The translations under genes were made by a program, and so were the position numbers. Source: Actinomycetota bacterium (lineage in GTDB: Bacteria; Actinomycetota; UBA4738; HRBIN12). From it: a DNA stretch of 64,000 bases. The notes under the pieces were generated by a model, which worked only from the letters and a program-made list of their open reading frames with translations, searched no databases and had not been told where the DNA came from. Every line of letters starts with the position of its first letter. Position 1 is the stretch's first letter. Positions 8,396-16,931 of the stretch are shown in pieces. The DNA is taken from contig BPGL01000002.1 of NCBI GenBank assembly GCA_026003015.1, forward strand, positions 310,001 through 374,000. Reading direction: 5' to 3'.

Positions 8396-10081
<1,686 letters not shown>

Positions 10082-12058: not shown

Positions 12059-12574
12059 TCAGCGGGCCCGTGGGCCGCTGGCGCGGACCTCCTCGACCGC
12101 GCGCAGGGCCGCGCGCAGGTCGGCGAGCCACTCGTCCTGGCGCTCGGCGACCAGGGCCACGCACCAGGCCAGGGCGTGCGAGCGGCTGCGCGCAACCCCG
12201 GCGTCGACGAGCGTGTCGAGCACGCGCCGTTCGGGCATCCGCAGGCGCGTCATCGTGGGCACCGACAGGGTGGTGAACAGGACCCGTCGTCCGGCGCAGG
12301 TCACACCCCAGCTCACCGCACGACCGAACCGCCGCTCGGCCTGCTGGGCGATCCGGATCCTCCGGGCGCGGGTGTCGTCTCGGAAGCCCTGCACCCGCGC
12401 CTCGATCGCGACCGCGCGCGCCTCGTCGGTCGCGTCGGCGCCGAGCTCGGGCTCGGGGAGGGGGCCGACGACGAGGATCTCGTCGCGGTCGGCCTCGATC
12501 TCGGGGGGACCGGTGAACCAGTCGTCGGGGAGCCGTCCTGCGAACCACCCTCGGATCTGCTCGAGCTCATTCAT
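12059..12574 (-). CDS. Conserved actinobacterial hypothetical protein with RHH-like C-terminal segment
   Basis: GWFAGRLPDDWFTGPPEIEADRDEILVVG...LSVPTMTRLRMPERRVLDTLVDAGVARSRSHALAWCVALVAERQDEWL. Confidence 0.75.
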   Translation of the reverse strand: MNELEQIRGWFAGRLPDDWFTGPPEIEADRDEILVVGPLPEPELGADATDEARAVAIEARVQGFRDDTRARRIRIAQQAERRFGRAVSWGVTCAGRRVLFTTLSVPTMTRLRMPERRVLDTLVDAGVARSRSHALAWCVALVAERQDEWLADLRAALRAVEEVRASGPRAR

Positions 12575-12589
12575 GTAACGGAGATTACA
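12574..12589. promoter_or_regulatory. Candidate operator dyad at the start codon of the 12059-12574 gene
   Basis: TGTAA-CGGAGA-TTACA perfect 5-bp arms; abuts the ATG of the minus-strand gene. Confidence 0.45.
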
Positions 12590-12655
12590 ACATTACTCCG
12601 CCGTCCTCAACCCGGGGCCGGCCCGCGATCGACGGACCGTGTACCCTCCGCCCGC

Positions 12656-13942
12656 ATGAGCCGGTCCGACGAGGGTGCCGTCGTGGCCGACGGGCCCGGC
12701 GATCGCGAGATCGCCGAGGCGATCGGGGCGCAGGAGGCCTGGATGACCGACCTGCTCGTGCGCCTCGTCGAGGCCGACACGACGCTCGGCAACGAGGAGG
12801 CCGGGCAGGCGATCGTGCGGGCCGCCCTCGCCGAGCTCGGTCTGGAGCCGGTCGACGTACCGATGGACGCCGAGGTGCTTCGGGCCCACCCGGTCGCGTC
12901 GCCGTTCGACTGGGACCCCTCGGGCGAGCGCAACGTCGTGGCCGCCTGGTCCGCGCCGACCCGAGGCGACGGGCGCTCGCTGATCCTCAACGGCCACGTC
13001 GACGTCGTGAGCCCCGAGCCTCGGTCCCGCTGGGCCCACGATCCGTTCCGAGCTCACGTGCAGGACGGGTGGCTCACCGGCCGAGGCGCCGCCGACACGA
13101 AGGGCGGGCTCGCGGCCATCCTCGGCGCCGTCCGAGGACTGCGCTCCCTGGGGGTCGCCCCCTCCGCGCCGCTGCAGATCCACGCGGTCGTCGAGGAGGA
13201 GATCACCGGCAACGGCGCCCTCGCCTGCCTGCTCGCAGGGCACCGCGCCGAGGCCGCCGTGGTCGTCGAGCCGTTCGGCGACGCGATCACGACCTCCCAG
13301 GTCGGCGTGCTGTGGTTCCGGGTGCGGATCACCGGCGACGCCGGCCATGCCGCGGTCCCCCCTGCGGGCGGTAACGCGATCGAGCGGAGCCTCGAGCTGG
13401 TCCGGGCGCTGCGCGCGCTTGAGGCGGAGCTGAACGCCGACCCGCCGCCTCCCTACGACGTCTACGAGCACCCGATCGCGCTGAACGTCGGTGCGATCCG
13501 CGGCGGCGACTGGCCCTCCACGGTTCCGGGCGCCTGCGAGACCGACTACCGCATCGCGCTGTACCCCGGGATGCGGGTGGCGGACCTGCGGGAGCGGATC
13601 GAGGCGATCGTGGCGGGAGCGCTCGGCCCGGCCCCCGCGCACCCGCCCGAGGTCCTCTACCGGGGCTTCGCCTGCGAGGGCTACGCGATCGAGCCCGACC
13701 ACGCGCTCGTGACGACCCTTGCCGACGCCTTCGCCCGTCTGGCCGGCGCTCCGCCGGCCCGGATCGCGACGACGGGGACGACCGACGCGCGCGTGTACGG
13801 GGAGATGGGTGTGCCGGCCGTGTGCTTCGGGCCGCTCGGGGAGCGAGCCCACGGGGTGGGGGAACGCGTGTGGCTCCCGTCGGTCGTTCGGACCGCCCAA
13901 GTGCTCGGCCTCTTCGTCCGCGACTGGTGCGGCCTGGCCTGA
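12656..13942 (+). CDS. M20-family metallopeptidase (ArgE/DapE/ACY1-like)
   Basis: LILNGHVDVV, GRGAADTKGGLAAILGAV, VVEEEITGNGALACLL; typical M20 metal-binding motifs. Confidence 0.9.
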   Translation: MSRSDEGAVVADGPGDREIAEAIGAQEAWMTDLLVRLVEADTTLGNEEAGQAIVRAALAELGLEPVDVPMDAEVLRAHPVASPFDWDPSGERNVVAAWSAPTRGDGRSLILNGHVDVVSPEPRSRWAHDPFRAHVQDGWLTGRGAADTKGGLAAILGAVRGLRSLGVAPSAPLQIHAVVEEEITGNGALACLLAGHRAEAAVVVEPFGDAITTSQVGVLWFRVRITGDAGHAAVPPAGGNAIERSLELVRALRALEAELNADPPPPYDVYEHPIALNVGAIRGGDWPSTVPGACETDYRIALYPGMRVADLRERIEAIVAGALGPAPAHPPEVLYRGFACEGYAIEPDHALVTTLADAFARLAGAPPARIATTGTTDARVYGEMGVPAVCFGPLGERAHGVGERVWLPSVVRTAQVLGLFVRDWCGLA

Positions 13943-13979
13943 AGGGCTCGCTTGCGCGAGCGGCGGCCCAGGGCGCAGG

Positions 13980-15488
13980 ATGAACGACGTCGAGCAGGGA
14001 CGTCGAGGAGACCCCGAGCCGAGGATGAGCGTCGTTCGGACGAAGCCGTTGCGGGGCATCCCGGAGATCCGGCGGTACTTCCGCACGAACGAGACCCCCG
14101 TGTACTTCGTCTCGGCGACCGCCTTCAACCTGCTGGGGATCGACCGGTGGGTGCGGAACTTCCGGTTCGTGAACTACTTCGACTCCTTCGACGGCTGGCA
14201 CCCGAACGTGCTCGTCCCGAAGGAGCGGTCGCCCCGCACCTTCTCCTCGATCGAGGAGATCTGCAACCACCTGCTCGCCCACAAGGAGGTCCAGGACGAG
14301 ATCCGGGCGCGCGGACCCGGGTACGCGGTGTTCCTGATGTTCGACGAGGAGACGGAGGCGCTCGCCGAGGAGCTCGGGCTGCGCGTCGCGTTCCCGCCGG
14401 CGTCGCTGCGCCACCGGCTCGATTCGAAGCTCGAGACGACGCGGCTCGCAGAGGAGGCCGGCGTGCCGAGCGTGCCCAACGTCCTCGGGCGCGCCACGAG
14501 CTACCGGGAACTCCTCGAGCTCGCACGCAGCGCCGACCTGGGAGAGAACCTCGTCGTGCAGACGGCCTACGGTGATTCCGGCCAGACGACGTACTTCATC
14601 GCCAGCCCGGACGACTGGCGGGCGGTCGAGCGCAAGATCGCCGACCAGGATCTGAAGGTGATGCGGCGGATCGAGCCGCGGGAGCTCGCGATCGAGGGCG
14701 TGATCACGCGCCACGGAACGCTCGTCGGTCCGCTCATGGCCGAGCTCACCGGGTTTCCGGAGCTCACCCCCTACGACGGTGGGTGGTGCGGCAACGACGT
14801 GTCCCCGGAGGTGCTCACCGAGCGACAGCGGCGGCTCGCCCGCGAGCGGACGATCGCGATGGGGGAGCGCCTGCGCGCCGAGGGCTACCGAGGGTACTTC
14901 GAGCTCGATCTCCTCCTGGACGCCCGCACGGGTGAGCTGTGGCTCGGCGAGCTCAACCCCCGCGTGACGGGGGCATCGTCGATCACGAACGTCACCGCGG
15001 TGGCCTACGGCGACATGCCGCTGTTCCTGTTCCACCTGATCGAGTTCATGGACGTGGACTTCGAGATCGACGTCGACGAGCTGAACGAGCGCTGGGCGCA
15101 GGTGACCGACCTCGATGAGTGGACCCAGCTGATCCTCAAGCAGACCGAGGACGTCACGGAGCTGATCACCGACGCGCCGATCTCGGGGATCTGGCGGATG
15201 GACCCTGACGGCGCGCTCGCCTTCGCGCGGCGCGAGACCGACTGGCACACGGTGGTCGACGCCTCAGAGGCCTTCTTCCTGCGGATCGCAGGGCCCGGCC
15301 ACTACCGCTACCCGGGCGCTGACCTGGGGATCCTCGTGACGCGCGGACGGTTCATGGACGAGGACCACGAGCTGCTCGATCGCGCTCGGGCGTGGATCGC
15401 GGGGATCAAGGCCGGGTTCCGATCGGTCGCCCCGGAGCGAACGCCGCCCCTCCGGCAGTTCGAGCCGTTCGGCTTCAAGATGCTGTGA
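13980..15488 (+). CDS. ATP-grasp domain protein (carboxylate-amine ligase / biotin-carboxylase-like)
   Basis: SLRHRLDSKLETTRLAEEAGVPSVPNVLG, LVVQTAYGDSGQTTYF, GYFELDLLLDARTGELWLGELNPRVTGASSITN. Confidence 0.83.
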   Translation: MNDVEQGRRGDPEPRMSVVRTKPLRGIPEIRRYFRTNETPVYFVSATAFNLLGIDRWVRNFRFVNYFDSFDGWHPNVLVPKERSPRTFSSIEEICNHLLAHKEVQDEIRARGPGYAVFLMFDEETEALAEELGLRVAFPPASLRHRLDSKLETTRLAEEAGVPSVPNVLGRATSYRELLELARSADLGENLVVQTAYGDSGQTTYFIASPDDWRAVERKIADQDLKVMRRIEPRELAIEGVITRHGTLVGPLMAELTGFPELTPYDGGWCGNDVSPEVLTERQRRLARERTIAMGERLRAEGYRGYFELDLLLDARTGELWLGELNPRVTGASSITNVTAVAYGDMPLFLFHLIEFMDVDFEIDVDELNERWAQVTDLDEWTQLILKQTEDVTELITDAPISGIWRMDPDGALAFARRETDWHTVVDASEAFFLRIAGPGHYRYPGADLGILVTRGRFMDEDHELLDRARAWIAGIKAGFRSVAPERTPPLRQFEPFGFKML

Positions 15489-15513
15489 GGTCGGGCGGGT
15501 AAGGTGGAGCGCC

Positions 15514-16527
15514 ATGCGGATGGTGCCGTTCACGTTCCGCGCCATCGAGGAGCTCGAGCTCGGGCCGCTGTGGGCGTCGGTCTTCCGGGAACGGTGGCCG
15601 CGGTACCGCGCGTGGTTCCTGCGGGAGGGTGAGGCGGCACGGGCCTCGTACGCGACGAGCGTGCGCATGCTCCGGACCCACATGCCGGAGCTCGTGCCCG
15701 CCTACGAGCGCGTCGTCGAGCTCGCGGGCGGCGGGGACCTCGCGGCCCGGATGCTCTCCGGCTACCGCCCCCCTCCGTACCTCGCGGCCTGCTCCCAGGC
15801 GGCGTGGACCCGCGCGGGGGGGCCGATCCTCGCCCGCAACTACGACTACGCGCCCTCGCGCTTCGAGGGGCTGATCTGGTCCACGCGGATGCTCGAGCGT
15901 CGGGTGATCGGCACGAGCGACTGCCTGTGGGGCCTGCTCGACGGGATGAACGACGCGGGCCTCGCCGTGTCGCTGACGTTCGGGGGGCGTCGGGTCCTCG
16001 GCGACGGGTTCGGGATCCCGATCGTCGTCCGCTACCTGTTGGAGACCTGCGCGACGGTCGGGGAGGCTCGCTCGGTGCTCCTGCGGCTCCCGTACGCCCT
16101 GGCCTACAACCTCACGATCCTGGACGCGGAGGGCCGGTACGTTACCGCCTACCTCGCGCCCGATCGCGAGCCGATCATGCGACCGTTCCCGGTCGCGACG
16201 AACCACCAAGGGATCGTCGAGTGGCCGGAGCAGGCGCGGGCCACCCGAACGATCGAGCGGGAGCAGCGCTTGGTCGAGCTGTTGGAGGACGAGCGCACCG
16301 ATGCGGAGCGCTTCGTCGGCGCCTTCCTGCGGGCACCGGTGTTCTCGACGGCCTACGCCCACGGCTTTGGGACGCTGTACACGGCCGTGTACCGGGTTGC
16401 CGAGCGCGCGGTCGAATACCGGTGGCCGACCTCCAGCTGGCGTCAGGCCTTCGGCGCGTTCACGCCCGGCGAACACATGGAGGTGCTGGCCGAGCCGTCC
16501 TTCGCGGCGGCGGAGGCCACCGCCTGA
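15514..16527 (+). CDS. C45-family autoproteolytic acyltransferase/hydrolase (AAT-like, Ntn fold)
   Basis: Candidate nucleophile Cys in LAACSQAAWTRAGGPILARNYDY; GMNDAGLAVSLTFGGR; LPYALAYNLTILDAEG; VATNHQGIVEWPE. Confidence 0.8.
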   Translation: MRMVPFTFRAIEELELGPLWASVFRERWPRYRAWFLREGEAARASYATSVRMLRTHMPELVPAYERVVELAGGGDLAARMLSGYRPPPYLAACSQAAWTRAGGPILARNYDYAPSRFEGLIWSTRMLERRVIGTSDCLWGLLDGMNDAGLAVSLTFGGRRVLGDGFGIPIVVRYLLETCATVGEARSVLLRLPYALAYNLTILDAEGRYVTAYLAPDREPIMRPFPVATNHQGIVEWPEQARATRTIEREQRLVELLEDERTDAERFVGAFLRAPVFSTAYAHGFGTLYTAVYRVAERAVEYRWPTSSWRQAFGAFTPGEHMEVLAEPSFAAAEATA

Positions 16528-16931
16528 TGCGCACCGAGGTCTGGCGCGTGCGCACGGAGGACCGCGTGGTGACCGACCTCACCGACCGCGTCAGGGCCTT
16601 CGCGCGCGAGGCCGGAGGCGACGGCCTGGTGCACGTCTTCGCACCGCACGCGACGGCCGGCCTCGCGCTGATCGAGACCGGGTCGGGCACCGAGGTCGAT
16701 CTCGCCGACCTGCTCGAGCGGCTGCTGCCGCGGGAGGACATCTACGTGCACCGGCACGGCTCGCCGGGCCACGGCGGGGACCACCTGCTGCCCGCGATCG
16801 TCGGCCCCTCGCTCGTGCTTCCCGTCGTCGGCGGCCGCGTCGAGCTCGGCACCTGGCAGTCGGTGGTCCTCGTCGACCCGAACCGCGACAACCCGGAGCG
16901 GACGGTCCGGCTGAGCTTCCTGGCGGGCTGA
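16527..16931 (+). CDS. YjbQ/UPF0047 family protein
   Basis: VHVFAPHATAGLALIETGSGTEVDLADLLERLLP, LPVVGGRVELGTWQSVVLVDPNRDNPERTVRLSFL; ATGA overlap with upstream gene. Confidence 0.88.
   Translation: MRTEVWRVRTEDRVVTDLTDRVRAFAREAGGDGLVHVFAPHATAGLALIETGSGTEVDLADLLERLLPREDIYVHRHGSPGHGGDHLLPAIVGPSLVLPVVGGRVELGTWQSVVLVDPNRDNPERTVRLSFLAG

Follow-up and report, generated by a model that had tools for sequence, protein, structure and literature searches.

The putrescine utilization (Puu) pathway protects an amine as an amide and frees it at a later step. The glutamate-putrescine ligase PuuA has a glutamine synthetase fold, the gamma-glutamyl-gamma-aminobutyric acid (gamma-Glu-GABA) hydrolase PuuD has a class I amidotransferase fold, and PuuE is a GABA transaminase. 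Another pair of this kind is Ebony and Tan of Drosophila, of which Ebony is a nonribosomal peptide synthetase (NRPS)-like enzyme. Tan is a carcinine hydrolase (PMC4694695). Here we describe a locus in a 64,000-nucleotide stretch of contig BPGL01000002.1 (hereafter the window) from an Actinomycetota genome of 2.2 Mb (90.5% complete, four contigs), in which the gene of an ATP-grasp ligase is followed by that of a C45 self-processing N-terminal nucleophile (Ntn) hydrolase/acyltransferase. The linkage of these two families is firm and spans two phyla. Our tentative reading is that they form a two-enzyme module for making and breaking amides, similar to PuuA/PuuD but built from unrelated folds.

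The genes and predicted catalytic sites of the locus are as follows:

13980-15488, plus strand: ATP-grasp ligase (PRK06524), 502 aa, core gene 1
14949-14963, plus strand: codons for E324-R328 (motif E-L-N-P-R), where the ligase is predicted to bind metal/ATP
15514-16527, plus strand: C45 (PF03417) self-processing Ntn hydrolase/acyltransferase, 337 aa, core gene 2
15790-15792, plus strand: codon of Cys93, predicted nucleophile of the C45 protein
12656-13942, plus strand: M20 metallo-hydrolase (PRK06837, ArgE/DapE deacylase family), 428 aa, optional third enzyme
16527-16931, plus strand: YjbQ/UPF0047 protein, 134 aa, resident neighbour outside the module

An earlier note on this DNA had placed four co-directional open reading frames (ORFs) here, and all are present on the plus strand with the intergenic gaps of 37 and 25 bp that it gave. 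Its ATGA overlap at the C45/YjbQ junction has to be corrected, as the two genes share a single base in TGATG (TGA at 16525-16527, ATG from 16527). The operon order is kept in same-family relatives, with protein identities of 73-78% for the ATP-grasp protein and 67-77% for the C45 protein. This conservation, together with the recurrence of the ATP-grasp/C45 pair in two phyla, shows that the ORFs did not fall into line by chance.

One line of evidence for the linkage comes from alphaproteobacterial and gammaproteobacterial samples that were picked by ligase family alone, blind to C45. A C45 gene lies within about 6 kb of the ligase in 9/9 alphaproteobacterial and 8/8 gammaproteobacterial loci, mostly directly downstream, against a chance expectation of about 0.3% per locus (a rough figure based on roughly one C45 gene in a genome of 4 Mb). 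In two genomes with two paralogues (G409 and G217), each ligase copy has its own C45 gene. Distance matrices of the two proteins also correlate, with r 0.86 for 28 loci and r 0.64 for 15 less redundant loci (none of 5000 permutations as high), a correlation to which common species history can contribute. When loci were sampled by sequence pattern instead, C45 was found on the contig, or on a longer contig of the same genome, in 17 of 29 ligase loci. The ligase family itself is rare. Of 397 Actinomycetota genomes, the window's own family among them, 14 carry it, as do 8/289 genomes of the class of G409 and 8/274 of the class of G410. It is absent from all 14 control genomes, and no relative was found in phage records. 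Thus, the earlier note's idea, for which the lack of conserved co-localisation would have been fatal, survived with C45 at all 17 alpha- and gammaproteobacterial loci, and the co-occurrence it proposed to look for in Actinomycetota extends well beyond them, to two phyla. One record (L038, CP059262.1) is labelled Exiguobacterium profundum; its organism label looks doubtful because the ligase and C45 proteins look alphaproteobacterial.

Both proteins appear fit for catalysis. The C45 protein matches PF03417 (104 bits against 23.2) and C45_proenzyme (177 against 85), and the nearest solved structure to its model (predicted TM-score [pTM] 0.89) is that of isopenicillin N acyltransferase (2x1c, TM-score about 0.7). 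Among 28 paired homologues, Cys93, R108, N109, D111, D143, N146, N230 and R249 are invariant. We take Cys93, Arg108, Asp111, Asn146, Asn230 and Arg249 to have the catalytic roles of their counterparts in bile salt hydrolase/penicillin V acylase. The nucleophile that the earlier note proposed in LAACSQAAW is Cys93, one of the invariant residues, and the protein is predicted to cleave itself between residues 92 and 93 and thereby expose it. With every catalytic residue kept, the C45 protein appears catalytically complete, and it probably hydrolyses amides rather than transferring the acyl group. The AlphaFold model of the ligase (pTM 0.87) has the ATP-grasp fold, and its nearest structures are biotin carboxylase and PurK. 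The motif E324-x-N326-P-R328 is fully or almost fully conserved among 30 homologues, with E324, N326 and R328 invariant in the alignment; the ligase thus combines the fold with the E-x-N metal motif that define the ATP-grasp superfamily. It is a catalytically plausible ATP-grasp enzyme. Amide-ligase activity is quite likely.

What such a module might act on is suggested by its partner genes in other genomes. The earlier note overlooked a recurring Orn/Lys/Arg-type decarboxylase, carbon-nitrogen (C-N) hydrolase, amidase signature (AS) amidase, nylon-dimer-type serine hydrolase and GABA transaminase. The commonest cassette in Pseudomonadota comprises a C-N hydrolase, an Orn/Lys/Arg-type decarboxylase, the ATP-grasp ligase and C45. 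The decarboxylase adjoins the ligase in 7/9 alphaproteobacterial loci and lies within the cluster in 6/8 gammaproteobacterial loci, and its pyridoxal phosphate lysine is kept in 21/21 aligned copies. Neptunomonas, Amphritea and Marinomonas have the order AS amidase, C45, ATP-grasp. In Shinella, the pair lies within a block encoding an agmatinase family protein, 5-guanidino-2-oxopentanoate (2-ketoarginine) decarboxylase, aldehyde dehydrogenase, D-amino-acid dehydrogenase and an ornithine-racemase-like protein. GABA transaminase exceeds the profile cut-off at three loci (L093, L130 and L144), Roseobacter (L060) has an annotated copy, and succinate-semialdehyde dehydrogenase (SSADH) exceeds its cut-off at L145. 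In Plasticicumulans, a polyamine/GABA-type ATP-binding cassette (ABC) transporter lies immediately upstream of the pair; the closest Protein Data Bank (PDB) entry to the ABC binding protein is 4eq7, which is named polyamine-binding, and the protein also matches a GABA sensor scaffold. Substitute hydrolases at other loci are a class C serine hydrolase with a match to 6-aminohexanoate-dimer hydrolase (E 7.5e-57), an AS amidase or a C-N hydrolase. Three finer assignments were rejected: the C-N hydrolase as carbamoylputrescine amidase (75 bits against a cut-off of 410), the AS amidase as NylA (it resembles GatA and urethanases at least as closely), and the saccharopine-dehydrogenase-like gene of L093 as homospermidine synthase (its top PDB matches are plain saccharopine dehydrogenases, with carboxyspermidine dehydrogenase fourth).

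Plasmids of Rhizobium leguminosarum carry the decarboxylase, ATP-grasp ligase and C45 together with a dipeptide-type ABC transporter, an amidase and a serine hydrolase. In strains Vaf10 and OyaliB, the cassette begins directly after nifHDKEN. At four loci on symbiosis plasmids (L064, L065, L066 and L115), the R. leguminosarum cassette is accompanied by RpiR. A second OyaliB cassette has a truncated C45 gene beside an IS30 transposase (L063, 13509-13760), and Sinorhizobium medicae and one S. meliloti plasmid (H25-H32) contain just C-terminal ligase fragments; the second cassette and the fragments are decaying copies.

Together, the decarboxylase, GABA transaminase, SSADH, 2-ketoarginine decarboxylase, polyamine/GABA-type binding protein and nylon-dimer-type hydrolase point in the direction of arginine, ornithine and GABA, and we give this substrate class a little less than an even chance. 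The ligase would couple a carboxylate to an amine at the cost of ATP. The C45 enzyme would mature by cleavage before Cys93 and then hydrolyse the amide with Cys93. The amine is most plausibly a di- or omega-amino compound that arises from arginine or ornithine and leads on to GABA, and with such an amine the module would act like PuuA/PuuD. In fuller cassettes, the decarboxylase may make the amine, extra amidases may act on related amides, and GABA transaminase may drain the product. The window cassette would be a reduced version between AbmR and YjbQ, with no decarboxylase and with an extra M20 amidohydrolase that may take over the work of the other amidases. A Puu-like order of steps is rather doubtful. 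More speculative still is an undescribed and widely exchanged route from arginine/ornithine to GABA (decarboxylase, ATP-grasp, C45 and C-N hydrolase) that replaces gamma-glutamylation by non-homologous enzymes and perhaps protects the amine with another acid. Rhizobia may have this route next to nifHDKEN for amine/GABA exchange between bacteroid and plant.

Several observations weigh against the reading as a PuuA/PuuD-like module. Most of the context genes belong to other lineages and may misdescribe the reaction in this actinobacterium. No Orn/Lys/Arg-type decarboxylase was found in the window's genome, and its GABA transaminase is on another contig, off the locus. Puu-like routes require an amine oxidase, for which a candidate (DadA-like) occurs only in Shinella-type loci. 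In addition, 12 of the 29 ligase loci in the pattern-based sample lack C45, some of them at contig ends. Four g53 genomes have the ligase, and in the three that were inspected its partner is a class C serine hydrolase akin to one from the Rhizobium cluster, whose closest solved relatives are 6-aminohexanoate-dimer hydrolases; several other C45-less loci are at contig edges or have a different amide hydrolase close by. The make-and-break amide chemistry of the earlier note stands as the most economical reading of two co-localised families, but its substrate is still something that we infer.

Without a catabolic direction, the pair could instead run a conjugation-deconjugation cycle for amine transport, detoxification or storage, as Ebony and Tan do; Tan frees histamine from carcinine, the Ebony-made conjugate (PMC4694695). 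Dipeptide-type, polyamine-type and tripartite ATP-independent periplasmic (TRAP) transporters flank several loci, and the window version consists of ligase and hydrolases only, both of which would suit such a cycle. However, GABA transaminase, SSADH and 2-ketoarginine decarboxylase occur in the same clusters in several lineages, and we consider a pure cycle unlikely.

A small biosynthetic pathway, in which the ligase makes an amide and C45 transfers the acyl group as isopenicillin N acyltransferase does, to yield a small amide metabolite, is about equally improbable. It would agree with the closest solved fold to C45 and with one Rhizobium cluster that lies near genes for ribosomally synthesized and post-translationally modified peptides (RiPPs) and a homoserine-lactone synthase. 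There is also a precedent in the NRPS-independent route to the amide inhibitor E-64, which is reported to involve ATP-grasp enzymes (PMC12568646). Yet the partners elsewhere are degradative hydrolases, importers and transaminases, and no recurring exporter or acyl-CoA ligase was seen at the loci examined.

The name under which the ligase family is filed raises a third alternative, a true carboxylase of the biotin carboxylase or PurK kind. The protein exceeds the cut-off of the NCBIfam equivalog PRK06524 (NF005096), named 'biotin carboxylase' (727 bits against 684), its profile hits are to biotin carboxylases and carbamoyl-phosphate synthetase, and its best structural matches have TM-scores of 0.5-0.6 at 10-17% identity. 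In the alignment, however, the P-loop Lys of biotin carboxylase corresponds to the invariant Gln194 of the ligase, and its catalytic Glu, in the motif RIQVEH, corresponds to Ala332 (PRISGAS). No Pfam family passes its cut-off, including Biotin_carb_N and Biotin_carb_C, and the sole match, CPSase_L_D2, is below threshold. No biotin carrier or carboxyltransferase gene was identified in the annotated neighbourhoods, where some genes stayed unnamed. A carboxylase of either kind is thus highly improbable, biotin carboxylase activity being rejected on the replaced residues and the partners missing from these neighbourhoods, and the equivalog name is probably wrong for this family. The same name recurs in public plasmid annotation.

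The extent of the module is defined by comparison with relatives of the same taxonomic family, in which the gene order is GroEL, NlpC/P60, AbmR, [module], YjbQ, GroES-like, PrmC, S9 peptidase and MoaA. Five relatives without the ATP-grasp gene (G002, G004, G007, G008 and G011; loci L161-L165) also lack C45 and M20 at the locus and retain YjbQ between AbmR and GroES/PrmC; in G007 (L163), YjbQ is only about 90 bp from AbmR. M20 is missing from the locus in three of seven close relatives (L069, L072 and L074), which keep ATP-grasp and C45, and L068 has the module but no YjbQ match. Since the AbmR-YjbQ-GroES-PrmC backbone is kept in module-less relatives, the module sits inside it: the unit gained or lost between AbmR and YjbQ is ATP-grasp plus C45, with M20 optional. 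A single functional system of all four genes, which the earlier note favoured and which close spacing on one strand and the adjacency of YjbQ to C45 in most module-bearing family members might suggest, has next to no probability and is contradicted by this backbone comparison. Neither M20 nor YjbQ turned up beside the pair in the other lineages where they were looked for.

The M20 protein matches Peptidase_M20 and NCBIfam PRK06837 (410 bits, cut-off 376); its best solved relative is 3pfo, and its metal-ligand motifs were located (GHVDVV, ADTKGG, EEEITG and AHGVGE). YjbQ matches its UPF0047/YjbQ profile marginally (68.9 bits against a cut-off of 67.75). Its adjacency, which the earlier note had left unexplained, is that of a resident neighbour outside the module, because YjbQ is retained in relatives without ATP-grasp, C45 and M20, and its occurrence is independent of the module. 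The YjbQ family is a proposed secondary thiamine-phosphate synthase, and YjbQ is present here in a genome (90.5% complete) with neither ThiC nor ThiE above cut-off.

On the other side, the module is bordered by two features:

12059-12574, minus strand: AbmR-type ATP-binding transcription factor, divergently oriented, bounds the insertion site on the left
12583-12596, no strand assigned: GATTACAACATTAC repeat in the intergenic stretch that separates AbmR from the operon, candidate AbmR operator

The AbmR gene (NF058631, 248 bits against a cut-off of 160) is present in all 12 relatives inspected. In 10 of 13 family members, the region upstream of AbmR contains the pattern ATTAC-N3-5-[AT]TTAC, and the remaining three have near variants of it; module-less relatives are among these 13. 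Its strict form occurs once in the window. From this sequence pattern, the GATTACAACATTAC / GATTACANNATTAC site is a candidate AbmR operator.

In three module-less relatives (G011, G008 and G002), the gap between AbmR and YjbQ is filled by an unrelated ORF of about 200 residues, which has a membrane-associated look by eye:

L161, 7600-8530: unrelated gap ORF
L164, 6920-7790: unrelated gap ORF
L165, 7430-8150: unrelated gap ORF

Because another ORF takes this place, the gap may be a variable spot. Farther upstream in the window, the GroEL gene (8457-10081) is split over three overlapping frames (8457-9224, 9085-9627 and 9584-10081). In relatives L069, L071 and L074, it is a single intact ORF of about 550 codons, and the three frames reflect either assembly frameshifts or a decayed gene.

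Both enzyme families are already known, and their pairing as a pathway is provisionally regarded as uncharacterised. Neither family is assigned to a characterised pathway, as the 'undescribed' pathway of the earlier note implied. The open-access collection searched holds no characterisation of the ATP-grasp/C45 pair, of C45 with biotin carboxylase, of PRK06524 or of the cluster next to nif, a provisional result with most subscription papers outside its scope. Across two phyla, what databases name a biotin carboxylase seems to act as an amide ligase in partnership with a C45 hydrolase. If the pathway proves real, the pair would carry out the protect-oxidise-release logic of polyamine catabolism with non-homologous enzymes, many annotations would be corrected, and genes that neighbour the nitrogenase genes of Rhizobium symbiosis plasmids would gain a testable function.

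Among known systems, biotin carboxylase shares the ATP-grasp fold with the ligase but differs in the replaced Lys and Glu and in the carrier and carboxyltransferase, not identified here. The nylon oligomer hydrolases NylA/NylB come into view through a class C serine hydrolase akin to 6-aminohexanoate-dimer hydrolase, which at some loci takes the place of C45 or is added to the cluster, and through the AS amidases that also occur; such partners belong to other lineages, not to the window, and the likeness of the AS amidase to NylA is unspecific. Isopenicillin N acyltransferase resembles the C45 protein in fold, predicted self-cleavage before Cys and catalytic residues, whereas identity is about 14% and no beta-lactam genes were seen. 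Ebony/Tan offers the same sequence of energy-dependent conjugation and release of the amine by a cysteine hydrolase, but the module is bacterial and beta-alanyl amides are unsupported here. The Puu pathway differs in that the module uses ATP-grasp and C45 folds instead of PuuA/PuuD homologues and that most loci have no PuuB/PuuC-type pair. In both, however, an ATP-dependent amide ligase is clustered with a cysteine-type amide hydrolase, and in several module lineages, though not at the window locus, GABA transaminase and SSADH are nearby.

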